Origin: Polaribacter sp. HaHaR_3_91 | Lineage (GTDB): Bacteria > Bacteroidota > Bacteroidia > Flavobacteriales > Flavobacteriaceae | DNA length: 64,000 bases | Assembly (NCBI RefSeq): GCF_019278525.1 | Contig: NZ_CP058986.1 | Coordinates: forward strand, 1,391,001-1,455,000 | Direction of reading: 5' to 3' | Shown: positions 38,104-63,637 of the stretch, in pieces | Position numbering within the stretch: the first letter of the stretch is position 1 | How the letters are laid out: every line of letters begins with the position of its first letter | Position numbers and translations under genes: made by a program | Notes under the pieces: generated by a model | Databases searched by the model: none | Told to the model about the DNA's origin: nothing | The model's input: only the letters and a program-made list of their open reading frames with translations

Positions 38104-38210
38104 GGGCGTTACCTTGTAGGTCAGGCTTTACGCTATATCTTTTTTAATAGCATGTATGCAAAAAGCATAAATACTATTAAAAAAGGATGCCACTGCAATC
38201 CTTAACGCAC
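38104..38210 (+). repeat. Three-stem dispersed element, copy 1
   Basis: This element begins 9 bp past the pseudouridine synthase stop. Stem 1 is GCGTT (38106-38110) with AACGC (38204-38208). Stem 2 is ACCT (38111-38114) with AGGT (38118-38121). Stem 3 is TTTTTTAATAG (38140-38150) with CTATTAAAAAA (38174-38184), capped by TATGC/GCATA (38155-38169). The unpaired core GGCTTTACGCTATATC and the 3-prime block GGATGCC...CAATCC are shared with the second copy at 63521. The stems differ between copies but pairing is kept. It may be a 3-prime UTR RNA, a terminator or a mobile palindromic repeat. Confidence 0.75.
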
Positions 38211-38291
38211 ATTTTAACCAACAAAAATAAATCCTTAACTTTTTGCCTTTTTTATAACAGTTCATTTTATTTATCAATTCTTAAATAATAG

Positions 38292-38299
38292 TATCTTTG
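38292..38299 (+). promoter_or_regulatory. -7 box upstream of tgt
   Basis: TATCTTTG matches TAnnTTTG, 118 bp before the tgt start, giving a leader of about 110 bases. No convincing -33 TTG is seen. Confidence 0.5.
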
Positions 38300-38305
38300 C
38301 AGGCA

Positions 38306-38397
38306 ATGAAATGGAATTTATTTAAAAAAATAAATAAATGAGAGAACCAGATAGTTATATAGGTTCTAAAGTTTTGTAATTAATTATAGTTACAAAA
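38306..38397 (+). other. tgt leader: 11-codon mini-ORF and two small hairpins
   Basis: ATG at 38306 opens an 11-residue frame (MKWNLFKKINK) closed by TGA at 38339-38341. Two hairpins follow: AGAACC (38343-38348) with GGTTCT (38362-38367), and TTTTGTAA (38372-38379) with TTACAAAA (38390-38397). This could be a regulatory leader for tgt, but small frames arise by chance in AT-rich DNA. Confidence 0.3.
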
Positions 38398-38416
38398 ATC
38401 ATCAAAAATTAAACGA

Positions 38417-39547
38417 TTGAAATTCGACTTAAAAATTACCGACCCAAAAAGTAAGGCAAGAGCAGGAGTAATAACTACTGATCACGGAGTAATAGAAACT
38501 CCTATTTTTATGCCTGTGGGAACTGTTGGAACCGTAAAGGGAGTACATCAAACAGAATTAAAAAACGACATAAATCCTGATATTATTTTAGGAAATACAT
38601 ATCACTTATACTTACGTCCTGGTTTAGATATTTTAGAAAAAGCAGGTGGTTTGCACAAGTTTATGAATTGGGATAGAAATATTCTTACAGATTCTGGTGG
38701 TTACCAAGTATATTCTCTTTCTGGAAGAAGGAAAATAAACGAAGAAGGAGTAAAGTTTAAAAGTCATATAGATGGTTCTACGCATCATTTTACACCAGAA
38801 AATGTAATGGAAACGCAAAGAACTATTGGTGCAGACATTATTATGGCATTTGATGAGTGTACTCCATATCCTTGTGATTATAATTACGCAAAACGATCTA
38901 TGCATATGACACATAGATGGTTAACGAGATGTATCAACCACTTAGATAAATTACCTTATAAATACGGTTTCGAGCAAACTTTTATGCCAATTGTACAAGG
39001 TAGTACGTATAAAGATTTACGTAGACAATCTGCAGAATATATTGCAAATTCCGGTCAGCAAGCAAATGCAATTGGCGGACTTTCAGTAGGGGAACCTGCG
39101 GAAGAAATGTATGCAATGACGGAGGTTGTTACAGAAATTTTACCAGAAGATAAGCCAAGGTATTTAATGGGAGTTGGTACTCCAATTAACATTTTAGAGA
39201 ATATTGCTTTAGGTATCGATATGTTCGATTGTGTAATGCCAACAAGAAATGCTAGAAACGGAATGTTGTTTACAGCACACGGTTCTATCAATATTAAAAA
39301 TAAAAAATGGGCAGAAGATTTTAGTCCAATAGACGATATGGGAATTACAGGAGTAGACACCATGTATTCTAAAGCCTATTTACGCCATTTATTTGCAGCA
39401 AAAGAAATGTTAGGAAAACAGATTGCCTCAATTCATAATTTAGGTTTCTATGTTTGGTTAACACGCGAAGCAAGAAAACATATCTTAGCAGGAGATTTTA
39501 GAGAGTGGAAAGATATGATGGTAAAACAAATGGATAAACGTTTGTAA
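38417..39547 (+). CDS. tgt: Queuine/preQ1 tRNA-guanine transglycosylase
   Basis: A 376-aa enzyme that swaps guanine-34 for preQ1 in tRNAs with GUN anticodons. Asp92 (LTDSGGYQ) and the nucleophile Asp271 (FDCVMPTRNARNG) are present. The TTG start gives the normal MKFDL-type N-terminus. Oddly, the C-terminal zinc site is gone: the positions of the three E. coli Cys ligands (302, 304, 307) align without gaps to Gly309, Thr311 and Asp314, while the His ligand is kept as His340. The fold otherwise looks whole, so the enzyme is probably active without that zinc. The permease gene begins 39 bp downstream. Confidence 0.96.
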   Translation: MKFDLKITDPKSKARAGVITTDHGVIETPIFMPVGTVGTVKGVHQTELKNDINPDIILGNTYHLYLRPGLDILEKAGGLHKFMNWDRNILTDSGGYQVYSLSGRRKINEEGVKFKSHIDGSTHHFTPENVMETQRTIGADIIMAFDECTPYPCDYNYAKRSMHMTHRWLTRCINHLDKLPYKYGFEQTFMPIVQGSTYKDLRRQSAEYIANSGQQANAIGGLSVGEPAEEMYAMTEVVTEILPEDKPRYLMGVGTPINILENIALGIDMFDCVMPTRNARNGMLFTAHGSINIKNKKWAEDFSPIDDMGITGVDTMYSKAYLRHLFAAKEMLGKQIASIHNLGFYVWLTREARKHILAGDFREWKDMMVKQMDKRL

Positions 39548-39586
39548 TTATTTACATATTCTAAATTACAAAATAAAGCTACGCTT

Positions 39587-40684
39587 TTGAAAATAATAGA
39601 CTGGTACATATTAAAACGATTTTTGGTAACTTTCTTGTTCACCTTATTAATCTTGATTCCTATTGCTATTGCCATAGATATATCAGAAAAGATTGATAAC
39701 TTTTTAGAGCATGCAGATTTAGGATTGTACCAAATTATAGATGAATATTACAAGAATTTTATCATCTATTATGCCAATACATTTATGCCTTTGGCATTAT
39801 TTATTGCTGTAATTTTATTTACTTCTAAACTATCTAATAATACCGAAATTATTGCCATTACAAATGCAAGAGTTTCATTTACACGTTTTTTATATCCTTA
39901 TTTTGTTGGAGCTAGTTTAGTAACAATTATTTCTTTAGGAATGAATCATTTTGTGGTTCCTAATAGTAGTAAGGAAAGAAAAAAGTTTGAAAGAGAGTAT
40001 ATTAAAAGTAACAGGCAAAAGCACGAGTTAAAATATGTAAGAGAATTTAGTTTGCAACTTACAGATAGCACCTACATCTTTATACGTAGTTTTGATACAG
40101 AATCTAATTCAGGTTATGATTTTACATCAGAAGTATATGATGGTATAGAAATGAAATCGAAACTAGTTGCTGATAGAATAAGTTATAAAAAAACCGATTC
40201 TACTTCTACTTTTACCTTATCTAATTGGAAATTACGTAAAATTTTTAAAGACAGAGATAGTATATTTTCAGGGAGTAAAATAGATACTGTTTTTAACTTT
40301 ACACCAAGAGATTTAATTTATAAATCTGCCTTAGCACAAGAAATGCCTTCTGGAGAATTACAAGAATTTATTGGTGTTTCTAAAAAGAGAGGTGTTAAAA
40401 ACTTAAATGCATATCTAGTAGAGTTTTATAAAAGAACAAGCTTACCAATAGCTTCTTATATTTTAACAATTATTGCTGTTGCTTTGGCTTTTAGAAAAAG
40501 AAGAGGTGGTACTGGAGTCAATTTGGCTATAGGAATTGGGCTCATGTTTATGTACGTTTTCTTAATGAAAATAGCTGAGGTTTTAGGTGCTGTTGCTGGT
40601 GTTAACTCTCTACTGTATGTTTGGCTTCCGAATATTGTTTTTGGCTGCGTAGCTATTTATCTCTACTATAATGCAAGAAAATAA
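39587..40684 (+). CDS. LptF/LptG-family lipopolysaccharide export permease
   Basis: A 365-aa inner-membrane protein of the LptF/LptG family, part of the LptBFG transporter that extracts lipopolysaccharide. Helices lie at about residues 13-30, 57-75 and 100-120, then a periplasmic domain of about 150 residues, then three C-terminal helices (about 285-360). YILKRFLVTFLFT at the start and YKRTSLPIASYILTI near the C-terminal helices are typical. The start is TTG at 39587, giving MKIIDWYILKRF. Its last 14 bp overlap the next gene, implying coupling. Confidence 0.88.
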   Translation: MKIIDWYILKRFLVTFLFTLLILIPIAIAIDISEKIDNFLEHADLGLYQIIDEYYKNFIIYYANTFMPLALFIAVILFTSKLSNNTEIIAITNARVSFTRFLYPYFVGASLVTIISLGMNHFVVPNSSKERKKFEREYIKSNRQKHELKYVREFSLQLTDSTYIFIRSFDTESNSGYDFTSEVYDGIEMKSKLVADRISYKKTDSTSTFTLSNWKLRKIFKDRDSIFSGSKIDTVFNFTPRDLIYKSALAQEMPSGELQEFIGVSKKRGVKNLNAYLVEFYKRTSLPIASYILTIIAVALAFRKRRGGTGVNLAIGIGLMFMYVFLMKIAEVLGAVAGVNSLLYVWLPNIVFGCVAIYLYYNARK

Positions 40685-41585
40685 GTTAAACAATTATTTA
40701 CAGTTACACCTTATCGTTTTTATTTGGGGGTTTACTGCAATTTTAGGCGCATTAATTAGCTTAGATGCCATACCGTTAGTTTGGTACAGAATGTCTTTAG
40801 CGGTACTTTTTATTGTACTTTATTTTATTATCAAAAAAAAATCATTTAAAGTTGACAAAAAAGGACTTTTAAAGTTCTTTGTAACAGGAGTTATCATTGC
40901 CCTACATTGGATTTTTTTCTTTAAAGCCATAAAGGTTTCTAATGTTTCTGTTGCGCTAGTAACTATAAGTACTGGTGCATTTTTTGCCGCTTTAATAGAA
41001 CCTATTTTCTATAAAAGAAGAATTAATCCATTAGAAATGGTGTTGGGCTTAATTGTTATTTTTGGGCTTTATATCATCTTTAATTTTGAGAGTCAATATA
41101 AATTAGGAATTATCTATGCGTTAATTGCATCTTTTTTAAGTGCATTGTTCTCTGTGTTTAATGGTCTTTTTATTAAAGAATATGCTGCAAATACAATATC
41201 ATTATATCAATTAGTTTTTGGGGTGCTTTTTATAACTGTTTATCTTTTAGTTACAAATGGTTTCTCTGTCTCTTTTTTTATAATTCCAACTTCAGATTGG
41301 ATATACCTTTTAATTTTAAGTAGTATCTGTACGGCGTATGCATTTATAGCTTCTGTTAAAATAATGAAATATATATCGCCATATACGGTAATGCTAACCA
41401 TTAATTTAGAACCTATTTATGCAATTGTTTTAGCATTATTTATATTTGGTGAAAAAGAAAAAATGAATCCAGAATTTTATTTTGGAGCATTTATAGTACT
41501 CTTTGTAGTTTTATTAAACGGAATTATAAAGAATAAAACGGTGATAAGAAATAAAATTAAAGCAAAGACTGTTAGAAAAAAGTAA
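40671..41585 (+). CDS. EamA/DMT-family transporter
   Basis: A 304-aa membrane protein with ten predicted helices in two EamA repeats (about residues 8-135 and 145-285). FIWGFTAILGALISLDAIPLVWYRM, quoted in part, matches the first repeat, and LEPIYAIVLALFIFGE the second. The drug/metabolite transporter superfamily exports amino acids or other small metabolites. It overlaps the LptF/G-like gene by 14 bp. The substrate is unknown. Confidence 0.88.
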   Translation: MQENKLNNYLQLHLIVFIWGFTAILGALISLDAIPLVWYRMSLAVLFIVLYFIIKKKSFKVDKKGLLKFFVTGVIIALHWIFFFKAIKVSNVSVALVTISTGAFFAALIEPIFYKRRINPLEMVLGLIVIFGLYIIFNFESQYKLGIIYALIASFLSALFSVFNGLFIKEYAANTISLYQLVFGVLFITVYLLVTNGFSVSFFIIPTSDWIYLLILSSICTAYAFIASVKIMKYISPYTVMLTINLEPIYAIVLALFIFGEKEKMNPEFYFGAFIVLFVVLLNGIIKNKTVIRNKIKAKTVRKK

Positions 41586-41617
41586 CTTCTTTTTAAAAAA
41601 AACAACTAATTTTATAG

Positions 41618-41625
41618 TATGTTTG
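41618..41625 (+). promoter_or_regulatory. -7 box upstream of accA
   Basis: TATGTTTG matches TAnnTTTG, 34 bp before the accA ATG. The -33 region is T/A-rich without a clean TTG. Confidence 0.5.
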
Positions 41626-41659
41626 TCTATTCAAACAACTAAAATCAAATAATTACAAT

Positions 41660-42613
41660 ATGGAATATTTAGATTTTGAAATGCCTATTAAAGAGCTTTT
41701 AGATCAACTAGATAAATGCCAAATAATTGGTAAAGAAAGTGATGTAGATGTAAGTGCTACTTGTAAGAAAATCGAAAAGAAATTAGACAAAGCTAAGAAA
41801 GATATATATAAGAACTTAACACCTTGGCAAAGAGTTCAATTATCTAGACACCCTAATAGACCTTATACTTTAGATTATATTAAAGCTATTTGCGGAAACA
41901 CCTTTATGGAGCTTCATGGAGATAGAAATGTAAAGGATGATAAAGCCATGATTGGTGGTTTGGGTAAAATTGGAGATCAGTCTTTTATGTTTATTGGTCA
42001 ACAAAAAGGGTACAATACAAAAACGCGTCAGTATAGAAACTTTGGGATGGCAAACCCTGAAGGTTACAGAAAAGCGTTGCGTTTAATGAAAATGGCAGAG
42101 AAGTTTGGTATTCCTGTGGTTACTTTATTAGATACACCTGGTGCATATCCTGGTTTAGAAGCAGAAGAGCGTGGACAAGGAGAAGCTATTGCTAGAAATA
42201 TTTTAGAAATGACTCGTTTAAAAACACCAATTATTACAGTTGTTATTGGAGAAGGAGCTTCTGGTGGTGCTGTAGGTATTGGAGTAGGTGATAGAGTTTA
42301 TATGATGGAAAATACTTGGTATACTGTTATTTCTCCGGAATCTTGTTCTTCTATTTTATGGAGAAGTTGGGAATATAAAGAACAAGCTGCTGCTGCATTA
42401 AAGTTAACAGGTACAGATATGAAGAAGTTAAAATTAATTGACGGAATTATAGCTGAACCAATAGGTGGAGCGCATACTGATAGAGAAGGAGCTTTTAAAG
42501 CGGTACAAGAACAAATTCTTACTGCATTTGATGAGTTAAAAGATTTAAATGATACGGATTTAGTTTCTCAAAGAATGGATAAATATGCTGCAATGGGAGT
42601 TTACAAAGAGTAA
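41660..42613 (+). CDS. accA: Acetyl-CoA carboxylase carboxyltransferase subunit alpha
   Basis: A 317-aa subunit of the heteromeric acetyl-CoA carboxylase, which makes malonyl-CoA for fatty-acid synthesis. Hallmarks are [43 protein letters not shown], here in two pieces of the same motif, and [15 protein letters not shown]. Length is normal. It has its own promoter and ends at a strong two-way terminator. Confidence 0.98.
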
Positions 42614-42631
42614 TCTCTTATTACTAAGCAC

Positions 42632-42670
42632 AAAAAAAGGCGAAATCTACATGTAGATTTCGCCTTTTTT
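42632..42670. terminator. Bidirectional terminator between accA and the TlpA-like gene
   Basis: A near-perfect palindrome centred at 42651/42652: AAAAAAGGCGAAATCTACA followed by its reverse complement to 42670. The A-run and T-run suit both convergent transcripts. Confidence 0.9.
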
Positions 42671-42686
42671 AGGAATTTATATTTAA

Positions 42687-43718
42687 TTATATATTATCTA
42701 AAGACTCTAATAAAGATTTTAATCTAGGATCTGAAGGTCTTGGTGCATTTGCTTCTACAATATTTCCTTGTGGATCAATTAAAATAAATCTTGGAATACC
42801 AGAAATTTGATACGCTTGCTGAAAACTAAAATCTTGTCCTGCCCAAAGTTGAACACCACTTAATTCTTTGTCTTTTACAAAGTCTCTCCATTTTTTTTCT
42901 GCAGCTTCCCAAGAACCACCACTTCTTCTAGACTCGTCAGTAGAAATACTAACAAATTCTATATTTTTATTATGAAATTCTTTTTCTATACTTTTTAAAG
43001 AAGGTATTTCTCTAATACAAGGTCCGCACCAAGTAGCCCAAACATCTATATATACATATTTTCCTTTAAAAGAATCTAAAGATTTTTTACCACCTTTAAC
43101 ATCTACATAATTTTCAAATTTAGGAGAAACGTTTCCTTTTCCCATACTTTTATTTGATACATACGTTTTTTCAAAGTACTCAAACATTTGTGTGTTTTGT
43201 TTAGAAGCCATATCTACTAAAGAACTATCTAAATCATCATAAGACGATAAAATACTATCAAAATCTTTTTTTAATGAGGTCATTTTAGCTTCGAAAGCTT
43301 CTTGGTCTAAAGCAAAAAGATCTGCAGGGTTTCCTATATTCTCACTTTGTTCTAATTGTGCAATGATAAAATTAGAGTTAGAAGATCCAGCTCCTGAATA
43401 CTTGAAACTTTTCATGAATTCTTCAGAATCACCTTTTACCGTAATGTCAAACCCATTTTTTAAATATAATGGAGCTCTTTTTTGAGCACTAGTTTGAAAT
43501 GTATAAACATCTACTTTTGGCACTTTTAAGGTGTCTTTAAAAGAACCATCTTTATTAATTGTAATTGTTTTAAGGATACCTGTTCTACTAGAAATTGTTA
43601 GAATAGAATCTGTGTTATTTTCTAATTTACCAGATAAAGAAACGTATTCTTTAGAATGTTCTTTTGTACAAGAAGCAATTGCTAATAGTGTAAAAAGTGC
43701 AAGTGTTAATTTTTTCAT
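42687..43718 (-). CDS. TlpA-like thioredoxin-fold lipoprotein
   Basis: A 343-aa lipoprotein (lipobox AIASC, Cys about residue 17). An N-terminal beta-rich DUF4369-like domain precedes a C-terminal TlpA/AhpC-TSA thioredoxin domain with the redox pair WCGPC (in VWATWCGPCIREIPSL) and the cis-Pro in SGIPRFIL. It probably reduces or handles disulfides of envelope proteins, as TlpA/ResA relatives do in cytochrome c maturation. The partner is unknown. A minus-strand -7 box lies 25 bp before the ATG. Confidence 0.9.
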   Translation of the reverse strand: MKKLTLALFTLLAIASCTKEHSKEYVSLSGKLENNTDSILTISSRTGILKTITINKDGSFKDTLKVPKVDVYTFQTSAQKRAPLYLKNGFDITVKGDSEEFMKSFKYSGAGSSNSNFIIAQLEQSENIGNPADLFALDQEAFEAKMTSLKKDFDSILSSYDDLDSSLVDMASKQNTQMFEYFEKTYVSNKSMGKGNVSPKFENYVDVKGGKKSLDSFKGKYVYIDVWATWCGPCIREIPSLKSIEKEFHNKNIEFVSISTDESRRSGGSWEAAEKKWRDFVKDKELSGVQLWAGQDFSFQQAYQISGIPRFILIDPQGNIVEANAPRPSDPRLKSLLESLDNI

Positions 43719-43742
43719 TTTTTTTATGCTTAAATTTAATTA

Positions 43743-43750
43743 CAAATATA
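43743..43750 (-). promoter_or_regulatory. -7 box for the TlpA-like gene
   Basis: On the minus strand this reads TATATTTG, an exact TAnnTTTG match, 25 bp before the start codon. No -33 TTG is visible. Confidence 0.55.
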
Positions 43751-43941
43751 TGGTATATGTGTAAATAAAATAGTTAAATAATTTACAAGAATGCAATCGA
43801 AATTACTTTTAGAATAGCAATTAAAAAAATTAGCAACCTTTTTATTTAAATTCTCTTCTATTAGATTTTACTAAAATTAAAGATTTTTTTCTTCGGATAA
43901 AAAAGTTGGCACTTTTGAATACTGAAATGAAAAGAATAAAA

Positions 43942-43983
43942 AAAAACTCTAGTTCTTATTTAGTTGATAAGATCTAGAGTTTT
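43942..43983 (-). terminator. Terminator of the NYN-LOTUS gene
   Basis: AAAACTCTAG (43943-43952) pairs with CTAGAGTTTT (43974-43983), with an inner CTTAT/ATAAG. On the minus strand a run of about nine T follows. The rest of the 369-bp gap (43751-44087) holds nothing else I recognise. Confidence 0.75.
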
Positions 43984-44087
43984 ATAGTAGAAGAAAAGGT
44001 GCTTTATAATATGATATTATTGCAATTTCTTAATTTGTTGCTTTTTTAATTATTGGTTTAAGGCAATTGCTTAAGTAAAACCTTAAA

Positions 44088-44825
44088 CTATTTATTTTTT
44101 ACAAAAATTAATTTGTGTCTGCTCTTGGAGTTTTCTCTTTGGTCTAAGTCAAATTTACCAATAGACTTAATAAGCGGAGTTAATTTGTCAAAACCATAAT
44201 TTCTTGAATCGAAATTAGGTTGTTTTTTCTGAAGTAAACTACCTACATCACCAAGAAATGCCCAACCTTCTTCATCAGATAAATCTGAAATAGTAGAAGA
44301 GATTAGTTTAATTACTTTTGACGTTATTTTGTCAACGCTATCTTTTTCATTTTCTTTTGTGCTAACACTTTCTTTCTTTTCGGTTTGCTTTCTAAGAATT
44401 TCTATATAGATAAATTTATCACAAGCAACAATAAAGGGCGTTGGAGTTTTTTTCTCTCCAATACCAATAACTTGCTGACCTGCTTCTCTTAATCGAGTTG
44501 CTAGTTTTGTAAAATCGCTATCACTAGAAACTAAGCAAAAACCATTTACTTTTTCTGAATATAGAATATCCATCGCATCAATGATCATGGCAGAGTCGGT
44601 GGCATTTTTTCCGGTAGTATATGCGTATTGCTGTATAGGAGTAATAGCATTTTGTAACAGTAAATTTTTCCATTTAGACAAATGCGGACTCGTCCAATCT
44701 CCATAAATTCTTTTAATAGTTGGGTTGCCATACTTTGCAATTTCTTCCATCATTTCCTTAACGTGAGCAGACGGTATGTTGTCTCCGTCTATAAGTACTG
44801 CTAAATTTATATTGTTTTGGGCCAT
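44088..44825 (-). CDS. NYN-domain nuclease-like protein with C-terminal LOTUS/OST-HTH domain
   Basis: A 245-aa protein. The N-terminal NYN (PIN-like) domain spans about residues 6-145, with the acidic metal site residues in VLIDGDNIPS, KNATDSAMIIDAMD and SSDSDFTKL. The C-terminal part (about 165-245, VIKLISSTISDLSDEEGW then FDKLTPLIKSIGKFDL) fits the OST-HTH/LOTUS RNA-binding domain. Together they suggest an RNA- or G-quadruplex-binding ribonuclease of the limkain-like kind. The biological target is unknown. It has its own terminator. Confidence 0.85.
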   Translation of the reverse strand: MAQNNINLAVLIDGDNIPSAHVKEMMEEIAKYGNPTIKRIYGDWTSPHLSKWKNLLLQNAITPIQQYAYTTGKNATDSAMIIDAMDILYSEKVNGFCLVSSDSDFTKLATRLREAGQQVIGIGEKKTPTPFIVACDKFIYIEILRKQTEKKESVSTKENEKDSVDKITSKVIKLISSTISDLSDEEGWAFLGDVGSLLQKKQPNFDSRNYGFDKLTPLIKSIGKFDLDQRENSKSRHKLIFVKNK

Positions 44826-44973
44826 TTTTTTATTTTGTAATTACAAAGAACAGAAGTACATCCTGTATTTTTTTTATTCTATTAATTATTAGTAAAAAGT
44901 AAAGTTAGTTTTTTGAGGTGATAAAATCAACAAGTACTAAATATTTGTTTTTTGTCATAATTGAACAATAAAA

Positions 44974-46134
44974 CTAATTTAAAGTTTTCATTTTTACTTT
45001 AAACATTTTTGCAGCAGATGTGTAGCCTCCTTCTGTACCATCTACAAAGTGTGCGTGTTTTGTTTTTCTATCTAACACGTAACAAGACATTACGGAAGCG
45101 TGTGTTACATGGATGCCATAAATAATTTTATTTTCTTTTTCTAGTTGATTTAGGTAGGTTGTAAAAAGATCTATTTTAGGTTGTTCTGCTGTAAATATTG
45201 TATTAATCATGCCGTCTAACATAAAAGTATGTGATAATTGACCAATTTGATTTAAGTATTGCTTTCCATCTTCAGACATGTTAAAGTACCATTTACCAAT
45301 CAAAGTTTTAAACCAATTTTTTAATAAATATTTAAAGTTATTATTGGCAAGTGTAACTTTCATTTCTTCCCATATTTTAGAAATGCTAAAATTTAATTTT
45401 AAATTTTTCGATTTTATAGGTTGCCTATTGTTGAAGGTGCCAAAAATAGTATCCATTTTTATAAGTACATCTCTATAAATAGCTCTTTGATCATTTTCGT
45501 TTACCGTATCTAACAATAAACAAATCACTTTCTTTTGGGTTTGTCTTGGGTTTATTTCTTTCCACCTACATTCCATCCCTTCTAAGTTTAAAAGGTCTTT
45601 TTTAAAATCAATATCTTCTATTTTTGTAAAAGTACTTTTAATGATTTCTTCTGCTTTTTTTAAACCGTTTCCTAAAATAATAGGAATTGCTAATTGATCT
45701 GTTAGTTGGTGTTTTACTATTTTTAGATTAGCTTTTTTTTCTGATAATTCTTCTATAGAAATATGTCCAACCCTAAGTATTAAATCGATGTTTTTTTTAA
45801 TATGAAGACTGTAATTTTCTAAAACCAAGGTAATTTTATTTAGAAGTAACGCTGGTATAATAAAAGTAGCGCCATCTCCTCCAAAAAAATATGGGATTTC
45901 TATGTTTTTCTTCTCTTTTCTAATGGTGTTTAATACAGAAATTATTGCTCCGGTTGCTGTTAAGTTTATTTGATGATGTTTTCCTTCATCAACAGCTTTG
46001 GTAGAATTTTTAATATCAACAACTACTACATGCCAAGTATTTGGTAATTCTGAGAAATCAGATTCATCTGCTAATAAATCAACGAGTGTTTTACTAGAAC
46101 TTTTTAATTGGGTGTAATATTTTATATTTTCCAT
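44974..46134 (-). CDS. DUF3095 family protein, cyclase-like
   Basis: A 386-aa soluble protein of the DUF3095 family. The first half resembles the class III nucleotide cyclase fold: WHVVVVDIKNST places Asp40 where the first metal-binding Asp of cyclases lies, and FGGDGAT (residues 84-90) resembles the second metal/turn motif. The C-terminal half (about 245-386) is a separate conserved domain with HVTHASVMSCYV. No product is known for the family to my knowledge. Cyclase activity is an inference from the two motifs. Confidence 0.75.
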   Translation of the reverse strand: MENIKYYTQLKSSSKTLVDLLADESDFSELPNTWHVVVVDIKNSTKAVDEGKHHQINLTATGAIISVLNTIRKEKKNIEIPYFFGGDGATFIIPALLLNKITLVLENYSLHIKKNIDLILRVGHISIEELSEKKANLKIVKHQLTDQLAIPIILGNGLKKAEEIIKSTFTKIEDIDFKKDLLNLEGMECRWKEINPRQTQKKVICLLLDTVNENDQRAIYRDVLIKMDTIFGTFNNRQPIKSKNLKLNFSISKIWEEMKVTLANNNFKYLLKNWFKTLIGKWYFNMSEDGKQYLNQIGQLSHTFMLDGMINTIFTAEQPKIDLFTTYLNQLEKENKIIYGIHVTHASVMSCYVLDRKTKHAHFVDGTEGGYTSAAKMFKVKMKTLN

Positions 46135-54921: not shown

Positions 54922-54941
54922 TTAAGACTTTTAATTTTATA

Positions 54942-55786: not shown

Positions 55787-56965
55787 TTACGAAATTCGCT
55801 CTATAACGAATGCACTTGCTCCACCACCACCATTACAAATAGCTGCAGCGCCAATTTTAGCATTATTTTGTTTTAATATAGAAGTTAAAGCAATTACTAT
55901 TCTAGCTCCAGAAACTCCTAACGGATGTCCTAAAGAAACAGCACCACCATTTACATTTACTTTATCATCTGTAATACCTAAAATTTTCATATTTGCTAAA
56001 CCAACAATAGAAAAAGCTTCGTTTAATTCAAAATAATCTACATCACCTATAGAAATATTTGCTTTTGCTAAGGCTTTTGGCAGTGCTTTGGCTGGTGCAG
56101 TTGTAAACCACTCTGGCTCATGTGCCGCATCTGCATAACTAATTACTTTAGCTAGAGGTGTAATGTTTAATTCTTTTGCTTTTTCTGCAGACATTAATAC
56201 TAGTGCAGCGCCACCATCATTAATTGTAGAGGCATTGGCTGCAGTAACAGTTCCGTCTTTTGTAAAAGCAGCTCTTAAGGTTGGAATTTTATCCATTCTT
56301 ACATTGCTGTATTCTTCATCCTCAGAAAAAATAATTGGTTCTCCTCGTCTTTGAGGAATTTCAACAGATACAATTTCATCAGCATATTTTCCATCACTCC
56401 AAGCTTTTGCAGAACGGTTATAAGATTGTATCGCAAATGCATCTTGATCTTCTCTAGAGAAACTATATTCAGTAGCACAAGTATCTGCGCAAACACCCAT
56501 TGCAACATTGTTATAAGCATCTACTAAACCATCTTTTTGAAGTCCATCCTCCATTGTTATAGCTCCAAACTTAGATCCTCTTCTTGCATGTTGGTAGTGC
56601 GGAATAGAACTCATGTTTTCCATACCACCTGCAACAACAATATCAGAATCACCTAAAGCAATGGTTTGTGCTGCTAACATAATAGATTTCATACCAGAAG
56701 CACATACTTTATTTACGGTAGTACAAGGCACTGTATTAGGTATTCCTGCAAAAATGGCCGCTTGTCTTGCAGGCGCCTGACCTAAGCCAGCAGAAACAAC
56801 ATTACCCATAAAAACTTCTTCAACCAAATTAGGGTTTAAGTTTATTTTCTCTAAAGCTCCTTTTATAGCAATTGCCCCTAATTTAGGAGCAGGAATGGTA
56901 GATAAACTTCCCATAAAGCTTCCTATTGGAGTTCTAGCTACAGATACAATTACGACTTCTTTCAT
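55787..56965 (-). CDS. Acetyl-CoA C-acyltransferase (thiolase)
   Basis: A 392-aa thiolase, which condenses two acetyl-CoA or cleaves 3-ketoacyl-CoA. The acyl-accepting Cys88 is in NKVCASGMKS. The His of NEAF and GHPLGVSGAR and the second Cys of AICNGGGGASA are present near the C-terminus. Closest to AtoB/PhaA-type acetyl-CoA acetyltransferases. It stands alone, 37 bp from the NlpC gene on the same strand, and diverges from the PgpH-type gene. Confidence 0.93.
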   Translation of the reverse strand: MKEVVIVSVARTPIGSFMGSLSTIPAPKLGAIAIKGALEKINLNPNLVEEVFMGNVVSAGLGQAPARQAAIFAGIPNTVPCTTVNKVCASGMKSIMLAAQTIALGDSDIVVAGGMENMSSIPHYQHARRGSKFGAITMEDGLQKDGLVDAYNNVAMGVCADTCATEYSFSREDQDAFAIQSYNRSAKAWSDGKYADEIVSVEIPQRRGEPIIFSEDEEYSNVRMDKIPTLRAAFTKDGTVTAANASTINDGGAALVLMSAEKAKELNITPLAKVISYADAAHEPEWFTTAPAKALPKALAKANISIGDVDYFELNEAFSIVGLANMKILGITDDKVNVNGGAVSLGHPLGVSGARIVIALTSILKQNNAKIGAAAICNGGGGASAFVIERIS

Positions 56966-57051
56966 AAATATAGTGTTTATTTTGAGTAAGATTTGTTGTG
57001 CTAAATTAACTATTTTTAATCAATTTAGGTTTTATTATTCAACTTGAATTT

Positions 57052-57080
57052 TTGAGCTTAACTTTTTTATGGTAAGTTTG
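57052..57080 (+). promoter_or_regulatory. Promoter of the PgpH-type gene
   Basis: TTG at 57052-57054, an 18-bp spacer, then TAAGTTTG at 57073-57080. This is an excellent Bacteroidota promoter, 19 bp before the ATG. Confidence 0.75.
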
Positions 57081-57099
57081 TAGTAAGAAGATATGTTCT

Positions 57100-59163
57100 A
57101 TGAGTAATATAGTTAATAAACTTTACCAAAACAATGCCATTATTTATAAGGTAATTTTGTTTTTAGTTGCCACTATTGCAATTGTTTATTTGTTTCCAAA
57201 AGGAGGACAATTTAAATACGATTTTAATAATGGGCAACTTTGGAAATATGATAATTTATATGCGCCTTTTGATTTTTCTATTCAAAAAACTGCAGAAGAA
57301 ATTGCATTAGAAAAGAAACAAATTTCAGAGAACTCAAAAGTTTATTTTTTACAAGATTTTGATGTTGAAAAGAGTGTAAAATCAAATTATAAAAGAAGGA
57401 TTTCGCTATTAAAACAATCCGATTCTTTAAGTTCAGATGAAATTGTAAACATATCTAAAATTGGTCAAAATGTTATAGATAATATCTATAAACGAGGTTT
57501 TTTAGAGGTAGTAAGTCAAGAAAAGGTATCAAATAAAAACGAAATAGTTGCGCTTAGAAAAGGGAATGAGGTAGAAGATATATTGTTTAAAAACCTGTTA
57601 ACGTCTAAAGAGGTTTTAGAAATAATTAGGAGTAATTTAGAAGCAGAAAGATCTTTTTATGGTAAAAAAATATTATTAGATTTATTATCAGAAATTATAA
57701 AACCCAACATCTATTTAGATACAATTTATACCGATAAAGTAAATGAAAATGCCATAAAAAATATTTCTTATACGAAAGGAATTGTAGAAGCTGGTAAATT
57801 AATTATCTTAAAAGGAGATATTGTAGAGGGAAAAAAATTAGCCATCCTAAATTCTTTAAAAACTGAATCTGAATCTCAGGTTTGGACGGACTCAAATTAT
57901 AATTGGATTATTTTAGGGTATACAATCTTGGTTTCTCTTGCTTTATTGATGCTTTTATTATTCTTAAAAAAGTATAGAGTAGAAATATATGACAATAATA
58001 ACCAGGTAACCTTTATCTTTTTCAATGTTTTTTTGATGATTTTTATACAAACGTTGGTTATTAAATATAATGCAGATTATTTGTATGTTGTTCCTTTAAG
58101 TGTACTTCCTATAGTTTTAAAAGCTTTTTTTGATGCGCGTTTAGGCTTGTTTACACACGTTTTAACAGTATTGCTTTTAGGGTATATTGTACCAAATAGT
58201 TTTGAGTTTATATATTTACATATCATTGCAGGTATGGTTACGATACTTACGGTTTCTGAGTTGTATAAAAGAGGTAACTTGTTTATTTCTGTAGCGCAAA
58301 TTACGCTTATTTATATGGTAACTTATTTTGCTTTTTCTATCATTAAAGAAGGAAATGCCTCTCAAATAAATTGGAATTATTTTATGCTTTTTGCTGCCAA
58401 TGGTTTGTTGTCCTTTTTGTCAATAATTATTATATATATGTATGAAAAGGTTTTTGGTTTGGTGTCTGATATTACTTTACTAGAGCTTTCTAATACAAAT
58501 GCTAAGCTTTTAAGAGAGTTAAATGAAAAAGCTCCAGGTACGTTTCAGCATTCCATGCAAGTAGCTAATTTAGCAGAGGCAGCAGCTAATGAAATAGGAG
58601 CGAACTCTATGTTGGTTAGAACAGGTGCTTTGTATCATGATATTGGTAAAATATTAAACCCAATGTATTTTACAGAGAATCAATCTACAGGTGTTAATCC
58701 TCACAACGATTTATCTGCAAGAGATAGTTCTAAAATAATTACAGATCACGTTATTAAAGGAGTAGAGCTAGCTAAAAAGTATAAGTTACCAGATCGAATA
58801 ATCGATTTTATAAGAACGCATCATGGTACAAGTTCTACCTATTACTTTTATAAGAAGGAACAAGAATTGAATCCAGATACAAAAGTAGATATAAAGAAGT
58901 TTCAATACCAAGGACCTATTCCTTTTTCAAAAGAGACAGCGATCTTAATGATGTGTGATGCATCGGAGGCAGCGTCTAAAAGTTTAACAAAACCAACAGC
59001 TTTGTCTATTAGTAATTTGATAGATAAAATTATAAGTAAACAAATGGCTGATAATCAGTTTTTGAACTCTAATATAACCTTTAGGGAGATAGAGATTATT
59101 AAGAAAGTGATCAAGAAAAAGCTGATGAATATCTATCATTTAAGGGTAGAATATCCAGAATAA
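57100..59163 (+). CDS. PgpH-type membrane HD-domain phosphodiesterase
   Basis: A 687-aa membrane protein with the layout of PgpH, which degrades cyclic di-AMP. One N-terminal helix (about residues 17-32) is followed by an extracytoplasmic 7TMR-HDED domain to about 265. A bundle of seven helices (about 268-465) and a cytoplasmic HD domain follow. The HD motif is His513-Asp514 (LYHDIGK), with HSMQVANLAEAA before it and RTHHGTSSTYYF after. A strong promoter lies just upstream. Cyclic di-AMP as substrate is family knowledge, not visible here. Confidence 0.92.
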   Translation: MSNIVNKLYQNNAIIYKVILFLVATIAIVYLFPKGGQFKYDFNNGQLWKYDNLYAPFDFSIQKTAEEIALEKKQISENSKVYFLQDFDVEKSVKSNYKRRISLLKQSDSLSSDEIVNISKIGQNVIDNIYKRGFLEVVSQEKVSNKNEIVALRKGNEVEDILFKNLLTSKEVLEIIRSNLEAERSFYGKKILLDLLSEIIKPNIYLDTIYTDKVNENAIKNISYTKGIVEAGKLIILKGDIVEGKKLAILNSLKTESESQVWTDSNYNWIILGYTILVSLALLMLLLFLKKYRVEIYDNNNQVTFIFFNVFLMIFIQTLVIKYNADYLYVVPLSVLPIVLKAFFDARLGLFTHVLTVLLLGYIVPNSFEFIYLHIIAGMVTILTVSELYKRGNLFISVAQITLIYMVTYFAFSIIKEGNASQINWNYFMLFAANGLLSFLSIIIIYMYEKVFGLVSDITLLELSNTNAKLLRELNEKAPGTFQHSMQVANLAEAAANEIGANSMLVRTGALYHDIGKILNPMYFTENQSTGVNPHNDLSARDSSKIITDHVIKGVELAKKYKLPDRIIDFIRTHHGTSSTYYFYKKEQELNPDTKVDIKKFQYQGPIPFSKETAILMMCDASEAASKSLTKPTALSISNLIDKIISKQMADNQFLNSNITFREIEIIKKVIKKKLMNIYHLRVEYPE

Positions 59164-59195
59164 AAAAAATAATTTAAAAAAAAATCAAAAAAGGC

Positions 59196-59225
59196 TTGTG
59201 TAATCCTTTTAATGTCTTAAATTTG
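59196..59225 (+). promoter_or_regulatory. Promoter of the three-tRNA operon
   Basis: TTG at 59196-59198, a 19-bp spacer, then TAAATTTG at 59218-59225, 42 bp before the first tRNA. Confidence 0.8.
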
Positions 59226-59267
59226 CACTCGCAATTTCAAGGTTATGTTTTTAACGTAACGCCGAAA

Positions 59268-59349
59268 GGAGAGATGGCAGAGTGGTAATGCAGCAGATTG
59301 CTAATCTGTCGACCTTAGGGTCGCCAGGGTTCGAGTCCCTGTCTCTCCG
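59268..59349 (+). tRNA. tRNA-Ser (anticodon GCU)
   Basis: Acceptor stem GGAGAGA/TCTCTCC, a long class II variable arm, anticodon GCT at 59300-59302 in the loop TTGCTAA. The T-arm has GGTTCGAGTCCC. The discriminator is G at 59349; CCA is not encoded. Confidence 0.97.
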
Positions 59350-59364
59350 CTAAGAAATTGCACT

Positions 59365-59439
59365 CGGGGTGTAGCGTAGCCCGGTCATCGCGCCTCGTTT
59401 GGGACGAGGAGGTCGCAGGTTCGAATCCTGCCACCCCGA
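59365..59439 (+). tRNA. tRNA-Pro (anticodon UGG)
   Basis: Acceptor stem CGGGGTG/CACCCCG, anticodon TGG at 59400-59402 in the loop TTTGGGA, flanked by CCTCG/CGAGG. The discriminator is A; CCA is not encoded. It lies 15 bp after tRNA-Ser. Confidence 0.97.
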
Positions 59440-59469
59440 CACAGTTGGTCGTAACAACTTAAAAATTAC

Positions 59470-59543
59470 GGGCTCTTAGCTCAGCTGGATAGAGCACCTC
59501 CCTTCTAAGGAGGCGGTCGAAGGTTCGAATCCTTCAGGGCTCA
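59470..59543 (+). tRNA. tRNA-Arg (anticodon UCU)
   Basis: Anticodon TCT at 59504-59506, with stem CCTCC/GGAGG and loop CTTCTAA. The acceptor GGGCTCT pairs with AGGGCTC using two G-U pairs. The T-arm has GGTTCGAATCC. The discriminator is A; CCA is not encoded. It is the last tRNA of the operon. Confidence 0.95.
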
Positions 59544-59546
59544 CTT

Positions 59547-59575
59547 AAACCTTACTAGAAATAGTAAGGTTTTTT
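59547..59575 (+). terminator. Terminator of the tRNA operon
   Basis: AAACCTTACTA (59547-59557) pairs with TAGTAAGGTTT (59562-59572) around a GAAA tetraloop, then T. Confidence 0.9.
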
Positions 59576-59798
59576 GTTTTATATAGGTTTTGTATAATTA
59601 TAGGATCCACTTAATATTTTAGGATGAAACTTCAAATAAAAGGATTATTATAATTAATAGCTTAGCCTTCAATAACTAAGAATACAACCTTATTTTTATC
59701 ATTAATTATAGCAACTATTTCATCAAGATTAAACAACGAAAAGTATATATTCGCACTCCATTTTTTTAATTTACTAACCTAGAATTCTAAATATATAC

Positions 59799-62774
59799 AT
59801 GAGCAACGTAAAAAACTGGTTAAATTATTATAAAAACAGTTTAACAGACAGTGAAAACTTAGCAGTAGACATTTCTAGAATTAAAAACTTATTTCATCAA
59901 AATTATTGCGATTTAAGCAAAGCAACCATTAGTGCTAAAAATGCTACTGAAATGCTTGATGTAGAAGAGAAAAGAATTAATAGGTTAAAAGGAGTTACTA
60001 AAAAAGATAGCGATAATTGGCATCAAGTATTTGATGCCGAAATTATTATAGCACCTTTTCAGTTAGATTTTCAAACAGACGATCCTAATTTTAAACAAAA
60101 AACAATTCACCCCTTTTGGATTACGGCAAGAGTAAACCGTTTAGGTCAATTATCTGCCCCAAGAGAAATATTTCCATTAATAGTTCGTAATTATTTAGAC
60201 CCGATAGCGGAGGTTGGTAACGATTTTATTTTTTCATCCATAGAAACAATCGCAGAAGCTAGAGATTTAGAACAACCAGAAGTAGAGGAGGAAGAAGAGT
60301 TAGATTGGGCTTCTTATTGGGAGTATATTAGTTTAGTTTTTTCAGAAATTACTGGTATCGGTATAGAGGATTATAGGGCAGAAGGATATAAAACCAATAA
60401 CAAAGTCACTTATTTTGCACGAAGTTCTAAAATATCAGCAGCAAAAAGCATTCTGTTTCTGTATGAGAATTTAATAAATGAAACAGAAGAACTTCCGTTA
60501 ATTTCAAAAATAATAAACCCAAGAAACAGAGAGCGAAGAGATCCAATTACCGATAAAGGCTTTTTAGATTACAATCATTTGCATTTAGGGCAAATGTCTA
60601 ACGAATTTCCGCTTTCTATTAGTCAGCGTAAAACTTTGTTGTCTTATTTAACAGCAGAAGAAAATGGAATTACAGCTGTAAACGGACCTCCAGGAACCGG
60701 AAAAACTACTTTATTGCAAAGTTTGGTGGCCACGGAAGTGGTGCGAGCTGCAATTAATGGAGAAGAAGCTCCTGTTATTTTGGCATGTTCAACAAATAAC
60801 CAGGCGGTAACCAATATTATAGATAGTTTTATAAATTCTAAAAGTACTATGGGGAATTTAGCTGAACGCTGGATTCCTGGTTTTAATGGCTATGCTACGT
60901 ATTTGCCATCAAGCTCTAAAAGTGAAAAATCTTTAAAAGATATTAATTATCTTAAAGGAAACATGTTTGGTAATGAAGGTACTTTGTGTGATTTAGAAAA
61001 TGAGAATTATATACACGATGCCAAGAATTTCTTTTATAGTAGATATTTAGATTATTTTGGTTTCGGAGCTAATTCATTAGAAGATATCTGTAATCACCTG
61101 CAAGAAGAAATTTCGGTGATAGAAGATAATTTAATGGAGGGCGTTCAAATCTCTCAAGATTATTTATCCTCTATAGAAAAGGTGAATAATTTACTACTCA
61201 ATAAGGAAAATCACATTAAAAAAAATGTAATTAAAATCTCAAAATTACAAGAGTGGAGAGATATTATTGTCAAGATAAAGTCGCTAGCTAAAGAAGGTAA
61301 TTTTATCAACGAAATAAAACGTTATTTTAAAGTAGATTCAGAAGAAAATAGCAAAGACCAAGAACATCTTTTTATTATAAGTAAAGAAACTCTTACAGAT
61401 GATAAAACAGCACTAGCCTTTATAAAAAAATGTATTACAGATTTTAATTTAGCGTTGTCATCAAACTTAAGGTTAAAAAACTGGAAATACTTAAATGAGA
61501 TTACAGGCTATCCCTTTATTTCAGAAGAACAAATGTGGGAGTTCGAATATGAAAAAATGGATTCTAAAGATAAAACACATCGATTTTTTTATGATGAAAT
61601 AGATTTAAGTTTACGTCACAAAGCGTTTTTATTAGCAACGCATTATTGGGAGGCAAGGTGGATTCTAGAAACAGAAGATGTTTTAGAAAATGAAACGGAA
61701 AAGGGAACTGGAGAAAAAACGGTCATTGCAAAATGGAAACGAAGAGCAATGTTAACGCCTTGTTTTGTGGCAACGTTATATACAGCACCAACACATTTTT
61801 TATTCAGCCAATTTCAAGGAGAGAATGAAAACGGAAAACCAATTTTCGAATACCTGCCGTTATTTAATTTTTTAGATTTATTAATTATTGATGAAGCTGG
61901 TCAAGTAACACCAGAAGTCAGTATTCCAATATTTTCATTAGCTCAAAAAGCAATTGTAGTAGGAGATTTAAAACAAATAGAACCAATTTGGTCTATTCCT
62001 CCAAAAATCGATTACGGAAATTTAACCGATCAAAATATTGTTACAGATCTAGCGCAAAAAGAATATCTAAATAACATTGGGTTTTTAGCATCAAGCGGAA
62101 GTATCATGAAAATGGCTCAAAATGCCTGCGAATATGAAACTCCATTAGTTACTACAAAAGAAAATGGATTATTGTTGTTAGAGCACAGAAGGTGTAATGA
62201 TGAGATAATAGGATTTTGTAATGAACTAGCCTATGATGGTATTTTAAAACCGATGAAAGGGAAAGCGCATGAGGATCAGGTTTTTGCGTCCATGATGGCG
62301 TACCATGTAGAAGGTTATAGCGAGCGAAAGTTTAATAGTCGTCATAATATGAATGAGGTAAAAGCCATCATTTTATGGATCAATAGACACAAAGAAGATA
62401 TACAAAAAGCGTATAATGTAGATAAAATAGAAAGTGTTTTAGGAATCATTACGCCTTTTGCTAGTCAGAAAACAGAACTTTCAAAAGCATTAATAGAATC
62501 TGGTTTTAAGGTAAACGAGATAAAACTAGGAACCGTTCATGCTTTGCAAGGAGCAGAGCGCAACATTGTCTTATTTAGTTCTGTATACACTAATGAAGAC
62601 GAAGGTGTCCTGTTTTTCGATAGAGATAATAAACCAAACATGTTAAATGTAGCGGTATCCAGAGCAAGAGATAGTTTTATTCTCTTTGGAGATACCAGAA
62701 TTTTTGATGAAACAAAAAGCACACCATCCGGAATTTTGAAAAAGCATTTAAATATGTTCGAAATGCCTACTTAA
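59799..62774 (+). CDS. Upf1-like superfamily 1 helicase/ATPase
   Basis: A 991-aa protein with all SF1B helicase motifs. Walker A is GPPGTGKT at 296-303, Walker B is Asp698-Glu699 (LIIDEAGQ), motif III is GDLKQIEPIW, motif V is GTVHALQGAERNIV and motif VI is AVSRARDSF with Arg955. The first 290 residues and the insert between motifs I and II (about 310-690) match nothing I know; both may be substrate or partner domains. Upf1-like bacterial helicases occur both in housekeeping and in phage defence. This one has no obvious partner and lies just after a tRNA operon. Confidence 0.85.
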   Translation: MSNVKNWLNYYKNSLTDSENLAVDISRIKNLFHQNYCDLSKATISAKNATEMLDVEEKRINRLKGVTKKDSDNWHQVFDAEIIIAPFQLDFQTDDPNFKQKTIHPFWITARVNRLGQLSAPREIFPLIVRNYLDPIAEVGNDFIFSSIETIAEARDLEQPEVEEEEELDWASYWEYISLVFSEITGIGIEDYRAEGYKTNNKVTYFARSSKISAAKSILFLYENLINETEELPLISKIINPRNRERRDPITDKGFLDYNHLHLGQMSNEFPLSISQRKTLLSYLTAEENGITAVNGPPGTGKTTLLQSLVATEVVRAAINGEEAPVILACSTNNQAVTNIIDSFINSKSTMGNLAERWIPGFNGYATYLPSSSKSEKSLKDINYLKGNMFGNEGTLCDLENENYIHDAKNFFYSRYLDYFGFGANSLEDICNHLQEEISVIEDNLMEGVQISQDYLSSIEKVNNLLLNKENHIKKNVIKISKLQEWRDIIVKIKSLAKEGNFINEIKRYFKVDSEENSKDQEHLFIISKETLTDDKTALAFIKKCITDFNLALSSNLRLKNWKYLNEITGYPFISEEQMWEFEYEKMDSKDKTHRFFYDEIDLSLRHKAFLLATHYWEARWILETEDVLENETEKGTGEKTVIAKWKRRAMLTPCFVATLYTAPTHFLFSQFQGENENGKPIFEYLPLFNFLDLLIIDEAGQVTPEVSIPIFSLAQKAIVVGDLKQIEPIWSIPPKIDYGNLTDQNIVTDLAQKEYLNNIGFLASSGSIMKMAQNACEYETPLVTTKENGLLLLEHRRCNDEIIGFCNELAYDGILKPMKGKAHEDQVFASMMAYHVEGYSERKFNSRHNMNEVKAIILWINRHKEDIQKAYNVDKIESVLGIITPFASQKTELSKALIESGFKVNEIKLGTVHALQGAERNIVLFSSVYTNEDEGVLFFDRDNKPNMLNVAVSRARDSFILFGDTRIFDETKSTPSGILKKHLNMFEMPT

Positions 62775-62856
62775 ATTAATGTTGAATTACTTTTGTAGAG
62801 TAAGCTGTCTTGTTAAAGAAAAATAGTAAATTTTTAGTATTATAATAATATTTAGA

Positions 62857-63486
62857 ATGAAAAAAGAAGTTGTAATTCTGTTTATACTTTTGATAACTAG
62901 TTCATATAATTTCGGACAATCTTCAATAAGATATTTTGTAAAAGGAGGTTTAAACCTTTCCAATACAAATTTTAAAGTGATTGAAAAAGGAGTGTCCTCA
63001 AGTAGAGAATTCGATAATCGAAAATCTTTTTATGTAGCAGCGGGAATTAATTTTCCATTAACAGAAGAAAAAGACAATATTTTATTACAAGTTCAATTGG
63101 CGTATTCAGAACAAGGATGGGTTTATAATTATACTGAACCAGGAGATTTTACCACGCACGAAATCAATCAAATTAATTTACCTATTTATTTAAAAGCAAG
63201 AGTTCATCATAATTTTTATTTTAACATCGGAACTTATTTAGGATATGTTGTACATTCGAAAGAGAAAAGCAGCCATAACCCTAATAGATTTGAAGTGGAT
63301 GACTATAAAAATTTTGATTCGGGTTTACTGGCAGGTTTAGAATATCATTTTAATTTTGGATTATTTTTAGAAACTAAATATATGTTTGGTCTATCAGATA
63401 TCTCTAAGGTCGCTTATCCTTCTTCGTTTATAGAGCATTCATATAAAAATAGAGTACTACAAATAGGTTTAGGTTACACGTTTTAA
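62857..63486 (+). CDS. Outer-membrane beta-barrel protein (PorT-like)
   Basis: A 209-aa protein with a signal peptide ending NFGQ (about residue 21) and an eight-strand-type barrel ending in aromatic GLGYTF. It has YFVKGGLNLSN at the start and AGLEYHFNFGLFLETKY near the end, typical of the OMP_b-brl_2/PorT family of Bacteroidota. It is 82 bp after the helicase. Function unknown. The three-stem element follows 34 bp past its stop. Confidence 0.82.
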   Translation: MKKEVVILFILLITSSYNFGQSSIRYFVKGGLNLSNTNFKVIEKGVSSSREFDNRKSFYVAAGINFPLTEEKDNILLQVQLAYSEQGWVYNYTEPGDFTTHEINQINLPIYLKARVHHNFYFNIGTYLGYVVHSKEKSSHNPNRFEVDDYKNFDSGLLAGLEYHFNFGLFLETKYMFGLSDISKVAYPSSFIEHSYKNRVLQIGLGYTF

Positions 63487-63520
63487 ATTTTAATATTACA
63501 TTTTTAGAGTGATTTTTTTG

Positions 63521-63637
63521 GGGTGTTCCCACGCCGAAAAAAGCGTGGTCGGGCTTTGCACTATATCTTTTTGTATGCTTATTTCTGCTATCGCATCAAT
63601 AATCATATAAAAAGGATGCCGTTTCAATCCCTAACAC
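63521..63637 (+). repeat. Three-stem dispersed element, copy 2
   Basis: Same architecture as the copy at 38104. Stem 1 is GTGTT (63523-63527) with AACAC (63633-63637). Stem 2 is CCACGC (63529-63534) with GCGTGG (63543-63548). Stem 3 is TTTTTGTATG (63568-63577) with CATATAAAAA (63604-63613). The conserved core TCGGGCTTTGCACTATATC and the block GGATGCCGTTTCAATCC match copy 1 closely. Compared with copy 1, stem 1 shows a C-to-T change on one arm balanced by G-to-A on the other. Again it follows a plus-strand gene stop at short distance. Confidence 0.75.

Follow-up and report, generated by a model that had tools for sequence, protein, structure and literature searches.

Flavo-1 (Rfam RF01705) is a bacterial family that goes back to a table by Weinberg et al. 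(2010; PMC2864571) and carries the Rfam type 'Gene; sRNA'. A review of sRNAs counts it among the most abundant bacterial sRNA families and, in its accessible text, gives no function for it (PMC9029176). In the accessible part of an RNA-seq study of Flavobacterium psychrophilum, Flavo-1 matches were reported in sense or antisense orientation with no preference, and many of them lay outside transcribed regions (PMC9723704). A description of Flavo-1 as an inserting or modular element, or an account of its copy number, its insertion or its frames and cassettes, was not found in the accessible text of the open literature, to which the search was confined (subscription papers were outside its scope).

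Other described systems resemble Flavo-1 in part. With REP and BIME sequences and their RAYT enzymes it shares the general character of short folded intergenic repeats, present in many copies and apparently with one active strand, but it differs from them in having no RAYT partner, a larger size (about 80-150 bases), a variable tip and two interchangeable modules. With MITEs it would share the non-autonomous insertion of short palindromic DNA; however, neither a clear target-site duplication (by eye) nor a parent transposon was found for Flavo-1, and its internal loops are strongly conserved. A 5-bp closing repeat stands at the ends of those elements that have frame B, one of the two outer frames described below. 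In integron attC sites, the folded strand is antisense to the upstream gene, the site often lies just past the stop codon and has a variable terminal hairpin, and the boxes at its ends read RYYYAAC...GTTRRRY (AAC...GTT). Flavo-1 is alike in outline, with a bottom strand that folds behind a gene stop (45/67 matches in the genome studied here) and a variable terminal hairpin. Its ends, however, read GCGTT...AACGC or GAAGC...TTGTTTGC (by eye) and do not conform to the attC boxes, the order in frame B (GTT...AAC) being the reverse of that in attC. Moreover, Flavo-1 was seen without arrays, and at the sites compared the greA, prfB and pseudouridine synthase genes stay in place and only the element comes and goes.

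Two Flavo-1 elements in the window

The window, that is the whole stretch of 64,000 nucleotides from Polaribacter sp. HaHaR_3_91 that was analysed, contains two elements for which a first-pass annotation had known no named RNA family. Both match RF01705 on the minus strand with 53.9 bits each over all 76 positions, above the Rfam gathering score of 42 bits, and are members of the known family Flavo-1. The two segments had been placed at 38104-38210 and 63521-63637; both are present, with exact spans of 38104-38208 and 63520-63637. In the following, the R strand is the strand read in that annotation (plus in the window) and the Rfam strand is its complement. The elements, their parts and their neighbours are as follows.

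37205..38095, plus strand: RNA pseudouridine synthase gene (S4 + PseudoU_synth_2), upstream of copy 1
38098..38103, plus strand: T-run following the stop codon (38093-38095) and preceding copy 1
38104..38208, minus strand: copy 1, Flavo-1 element with frame B and cassette 1; Rfam match 38115-38227
38106..38110, plus strand: copy 1 closing stem, left arm GCGTT, pairing with AACGC at 38204-38208
38111..38121, plus strand: copy 1 frame-B side hairpin ACCT/AGGT (arms 38111-38114 and 38118-38121)
38125..38139, plus strand: copy 1 conserved left box GCTTT-AC-[GC]-TATATC, bracketed bases pairing with 38192-38193
38140..38184, no strand assigned: copy 1 variable tip hairpin; tips vary among orthologous copies
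38185..38200, plus strand: copy 1 conserved right box GGATGCC-[AC]-TGCAATC
38204..38208, plus strand: copy 1 closing stem, right arm AACGC
38417..39547, plus strand: tgt, queuine tRNA-ribosyltransferase gene, downstream of copy 1
62857..63486, plus strand: outer-membrane beta-barrel protein gene, upstream of copy 2
63513..63519, plus strand: T-run immediately 5' of copy 2
63520..63637, minus strand: copy 2, Flavo-1 element with frame B and cassette 1; Rfam match 63543-63639
63523..63527, plus strand: copy 2 closing stem, left arm GTGTT, pairing with AACAC at 63633-63637
63529..63548, plus strand: copy 2 frame-B side hairpin CCACGC/GCGTGG (arms 63529-63534 and 63543-63548)
63553..63567, plus strand: copy 2 conserved left box GCTTT-GC-[AC]-TATATC, bracketed bases pairing with GT at 63621-63622
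63568..63613, no strand assigned: copy 2 variable tip hairpin
63614..63629, plus strand: copy 2 conserved right box GGATGCC-[GT]-TTCAATC
63633..63637, plus strand: copy 2 closing stem, right arm AACAC

The stems described earlier, GCGTT/AACGC against GTGTT/AACAC for the first and ACCT/AGGT against CCACGC/GCGTGG for the second, could be read in the sequence, as could the single-stranded blocks common to both copies and the short distance behind plus-strand stops (at 38095 and 63486). Within the internal loop, each copy also has a two-base pair that had been overlooked. It is GC/AC in copy 1 (38132-38133, 38192-38193), where one of the two pairs is C-A on the R strand and G-U on the complement, and AC/GT in copy 2 (63560-63561, 63621-63622). 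The three-way junction that had been proposed holds for part of the frame-B elements, which have the side hairpin, and does not extend to other copies, which have the form of rods with internal loops (by eye).

Some 115 extra bases, which include a hairpin (38306-38420; GAACC...GGTTC, with GAACG...CGTTC in genome G021), stand ahead of the tgt start. A like insert occurs at the same place in G021 and G011, bounded by short repeats (TGAAA; TGGAA/TGAAA in G011), and is absent from G001, which is 97% alike to G021 there. A search with the motif of this insert gave matches at these 3 places only, among the loci compared, and the tgt start is TTG or GTG where the insert is present (by eye).

Copy number and distribution

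The genome of the window (G000; 4.2 Mb, one contig) does not hold merely the two copies first noted: at least 69 Flavo-1 matches were found with E values up to 0.001, of which 49 were over the gathering score, the figure being a lower bound as 150 of 1144 candidates were scored. A Flavo-1 match was present in 33 of 59 genomes, the own genome included. Among 36 genomes of the same genus (again with the own genome, and with at most 66 candidates scored per genome), copy number ranged from 0 to at least 66, the latter in G018. In this survey G001, G008, G021 and G029 had 53 to 59 copies each, and there was no match in, for example, G002, G003 and G034, each of which is 99% complete. Rescoring of G029, G001 and G021 gave 69, 63 and 59 copies, respectively. 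When one genome per species was scanned with a pattern, at least 120 stretches matched; the 120 listed all come from Bacteroidota, mostly Flavobacteriia, with a few Pedobacter relatives, one member of the Saprospiraceae and gut Bacteroidales.

Plasmid and phage records gave no match to one 103-base frame-A query. Two contigs of a viral collection each contained a Flavo-1 copy. In the first, which is phage-like, a gene for a protein of 573 aa has the copy about 20 bases behind it; PHROGs of unknown function were matched by 3 of the 4 proteins tried, and an S49 peptidase and a RadC-like protein were also present. The second contig had one PHROG match along with host-like genes (by eye). Within G000 the copies cluster, with 10 neighbours under 4 kb against 4.3 expected (p 0.01) and opposite strands in 9 of the 10 close pairs. 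Special genes between the close pairs were considered and rejected, the translations looking like ordinary host genes (by eye).

Flavo-1 elements consist of frames and cassettes

Flavo-1 is modular, which is new here: each element pairs an outer frame with an inner cassette, both of them matched within themselves, and the two combine freely. There are two outer frames, A (AGAAGCTATTTCC...GGGCTAAACTTGTTTGC) and B (GGGCGTT...AACGC, with an optional side hairpin), and four inner cassettes, termed 1, 1b, 2 and 3. Across 131 elements the outer halves were A/A in 68 and B/B in 63, with no mixed element, and wherever both inner halves could be typed (125 elements) they matched; in five more only one side was typed, and in one neither. 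Of the eight possible combinations of frame and cassette this set contains seven, A with 1b once and A with 3 never. These figures, like those given below for the two-base pair, the core pairs and the orthologous copies, are pattern-based and cover only elements fitting the patterns. Cassettes 2 and 3 extend the family. In G000, cassette 2 copies have Rfam scores of about 32-48 bits and cassette 3 copies of about 31-36 bits, so that many of them miss the 42-bit cut-off.

In some copies (L010, L012, L014, L015, L017 and L050) the tip contains stretches found again in other copies (CTGTCAGTTCGAG...TATCGAGAACAG; GTCATTGCGAA...), a pattern suggestive of other dispersed repeats having entered the tip by insertion or capture.

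Fold, covariation and folding strand

The fold was examined in 48 distinct relatives of equal length, taken from 136 cassette-1 elements sorted by tip length, and compared with 500 shuffles. Pairing was found in 94.7% of 864 cells against 81.4% (sd 0.8) in the shuffles, the covariation score was 0.343 against 0.098, and 123 cells showed changes on both sides against 45, which supports the earlier proposal that the fold is under constraint. When partners were slid by 1 to 3 columns, pairing fell to 39.5-66.1%. Neither the number of pairs with a both-side change (7 against 6.0, with 21/500 shuffles as high) nor that of further pair types (15 against 18.3, with 499/500 shuffles as high) stood out from the shuffles. 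Pairing is lost at the outermost proposed position in 28 of the 48 sequences and at the innermost position of the tip in 16.

The two-base inner pair was untouched by any search pattern. In two scans that left it free, both of its bases were Watson-Crick paired in 115 of 122 elements, against a mean of 37 and a maximum of 58 elements with both bases paired in shuffles of the same set; wobbles at this pair numbered 6 on the Rfam strand and 0 on the other. The count was similar in form over 181 elements, a set whose rows overlap with those of the 122. Specifically, the four core pairs gave 699 Watson-Crick cells, 19 wobbles on the Rfam strand, 0 wobbles on the R strand and 6 mismatches. Fifteen of the 19 wobbles, against 0 on the R strand, belong to the two-base pair; the other four were not counted, because the frame-A filter partly restricts one base in the outermost of the four pairs, and the 15 do not stand for 15 events, since related sequences share some of them. 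This imbalance (15 against 0) points to a single strand, the Rfam strand, as the one that folds, whether as RNA or as DNA, and says that the functional form would be one strand in the single-stranded state. A function as a symmetric cruciform is disfavoured because the wobbles are one-sided. The 1426 pairs of the tip arms include 9 wobbles on the Rfam strand and 3 on the R strand; as these arms were counted inwards only to the first mismatch, their pairing is no evidence by itself. Folding energies did not tell the strands apart, the Rfam strand being the more stable in 111/214 elements as RNA and in 127/214 as DNA.

Gain and siting of the elements

A comparison of loci gave 82 candidate pairs of filled and empty sites. 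These gave 18 distinct filled elements. For 15 of them, spread over 11 sites, a relative lacked any element; for the other 3, both sides of the comparison had one. Sites with and without the element were likewise found behind greA and behind prfB. At one convergent junction, two stop codons abut in G005, and the elements of G009 and G001 are oppositely oriented, each lying behind the stop of a different gene. This arrangement would be best explained by two separate gains. In G001, two copies do not differ over 81 bases. Inspection by eye of the filled/empty comparison, where flanks are only about 72-87% alike, revealed no consistent target-site duplication. Exact empty sites were also sought between G001 and G021, which are 97% alike at one locus, and little was shared over the 400 kb taken from each.

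In G000, the upstream gene was in the R sense for 45 of 67 matches outside genes and in the other sense for 22. In other genomes, with one locus each, it was in the R sense at 17 of 21 loci (some at shared sites), these being drawn from 29 such loci. By simple ORF calls, 14 of the 45 R-sense matches in G000 start 2 to 13 bases past the stop. The left border is T-rich on the R strand in the copies profiled, and some copies lie after the T-run of a terminator (by eye). Empty sites behind greA often already have a T-run past the stop, which argues that the run is at least partly target. As to replication, the R strand is the leading direction in 45 of 69 matches in G000 (47 with another choice of origin and terminus, both set from a rough GC skew) and in 88 of the 150 best matches of three other genomes, none of which is significant alone and for which the GC skew is noisy; the orientation bias is weak and, if anything, opposite to that of a lagging-strand ssDNA transposon.

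Ageing at orthologous sites

Copies whose two flanks are both orthologous formed 25 groups with 71 members in all, including copies from different genera, and 274 of their 284 cells were Watson-Crick paired. The frame-A filter mentioned above acts on the outermost pair in this count as well. Relative to the commonest pair in each group, 23 both-side changes keep pairing, 2 one-side changes lead to another Watson-Crick pair and 2 give mismatches; one-side wobbles numbered 6 on the Rfam strand and 0 on the other. Pairing that is kept at orthologous sites goes beyond junk DNA and leaves room for a host function. Compared with random pairs of the same frame, orthologues were more alike in the left (0.87 against 0.60) and right (0.77 against 0.65) parts of the frame; the difference was less marked in the inner boxes (0.89 against 0.82) and slight in the tip (0.71 against 0.64), with identical tips in 6 of 78 orthologue pairs.

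The cassette was the same in 93 of 99 ortholog-like pairs, and the other 6 came from two sites; in-place cassette replacement is not frequent. At the site between the pseudouridine synthase gene and tgt, cassette 1 is found in G000 and G004 and cassette 1b in G029, G001, G021 and G013, all within the same frame, with what look like decayed remains in G032 and G016 and nothing in other genomes. Differing cassettes at one site were also seen behind greA and at the loci L067/L261 and L115/L218/L242. Such differences in cassette or tip may reflect in-place conversion, loss followed by a new insertion, or fast compensation in the tip.

Flavo-1 as a probable insertion element

Dozens of copies per genome, a nearly always intergenic position and absence from related species at the same site are best explained if Flavo-1 is a non-autonomous interspersed insertion element and not a classical sRNA gene, and we consider this reading probable. 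An enzyme supplied in trans would recognise the folded single strand, be it displaced DNA or an RNA copy, and would join it behind oligo-T, just past stop codons or terminators. Once settled, copies would evolve by compensatory steps; some sites would also see the inner cassette replaced, through gene conversion from another copy or through loss and a new insertion, the frame being mostly inherited meanwhile. Should this reading hold, the sRNA annotation of a large family is wrong, and an agent that has gone unrecognised adds DNA behind genes in many marine and some gut Bacteroidota. The two-module design provides a handle toward the enzyme, by way of the sites that differ in cassette and of a defined single strand as bait.

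A more specific proposal is made tentatively and is, as a whole, open to considerable doubt. It holds that Flavo-1 is a new folded-strand mobile element of Bacteroidota with a mover that is neither a Y1/HUH enzyme nor a reverse transcriptase, that a cassette can be exchanged in situ within a frame that stays at its site, and that a recombination system recognises the two as separate modules.

The classification in Rfam as 'Gene; sRNA' agrees with a different explanation, in which the Rfam strand of every copy is expressed as a small or antisense RNA, regulatory or protein-binding, and the copies are kept for this function. The restriction of core wobbles to the Rfam strand and the preserved pairing at orthologous sites, with 23 pairing-keeping changes in 25 groups, are also in its favour. 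We nevertheless regard it as unlikely in view of copy numbers that vary between 0 and dozens inside a single genus and of the empty sites in relatives, and the Flavobacterium psychrophilum matches, in the part of that study accessible, were indifferent to strand and often outside transcribed regions (PMC9723704).

A REP-like repeat moved by a Y1 enzyme (RAYT or IS200/IS605) that is now lost, rare or too divergent is more improbable still, although a hairpin with one active strand, intergenic and in many copies, is in keeping with it. The accessible text of one study reports subclass 2.6 Y1 enzymes of Bacteroidetes beside 'atypical secondary structures', without naming Flavo-1 (PMC6006769), and in G018, where at least 66 copies were counted, about 0.5 kb separates a Y1-type gene from a Flavo-1 copy (a match to RVT_1 is present there as well). 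Against this, neither PF01797 (Y1) nor a relative of the G018 Y1-type protein was found in the copy-rich genomes G001, G008, G021 and G029, or in G004, and the RAYT of the window's own genome has no relative in G001, G004, G008 or G021. That RAYT gene (185 aa) is flanked on both sides by direct repeats of its own, 93 bases long, 97% alike and unlike Flavo-1 (L099:1317-1409, 2053-2145). Flavo-1 was within the flank of 2 of 30 Y1 loci, a count from which cassettes 2 and 3 may be missing, given the Rfam model used, and the Flavo-1 consensus lacks, by eye, the GT[AG]G foot, though single copies such as L212 read GTAG there. The earlier suggestion of transposable palindromes moved by a RAYT or Y1 enzyme agrees with the filled and empty sites as regards insertion and is not supported as regards the mover, the enzyme being missing from copy-rich genomes and Y1 loci being rarely beside Flavo-1.

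It is very improbable that Flavo-1 is a retroposon, in which an RNA copy of the Rfam strand with an A-rich 3' end is reverse transcribed into T-rich sites. The T-rich left border on the R strand does mean that the Rfam strand ends A-rich, and RVT_1 is present in G000, G001, G008 and G018; yet the empty greA sites already have T-runs, so that the run may be target, and RVT_1 was not found in G004, G009, G013, G021, G026 or G029, which have 22 to 53 copies in the 36-genome survey. A reverse transcriptase was rejected as the mover because the presence of RVT_1 does not track copy number. Least probable of all is a 3'-UTR element of the upstream gene (a stabiliser, a terminator or a source of sRNA) folded on the R strand, as the first-pass annotation had suggested from its position: the 3'-side preference (45/67 and 17/21) fits, but the strand that folds is the complement, antisense to the upstream gene, the core pairs show no R-strand wobble in 181 elements, some copies lie past a terminator T-run and the upstream gene has the other orientation for 22/67.

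To return to the insertion element that we favour, no autonomous long version, with the frame halves far apart, was found among 198 left halves plus right halves; the 91 unpartnered halves listed from these are, on reading the list, chance matches or elements whose other half missed the pattern. The mover may be no longer resident, or may be of a kind other than those tried. The search for Y1-type proteins also turned up an open reading frame in G005 (L102:1429-2991) that combines a Y1-type domain with a coproporphyrinogen oxidase-like part (by eye), and the Y1-type matches in G015, G019 and G026 likewise lie within frames of 520-529 aa.
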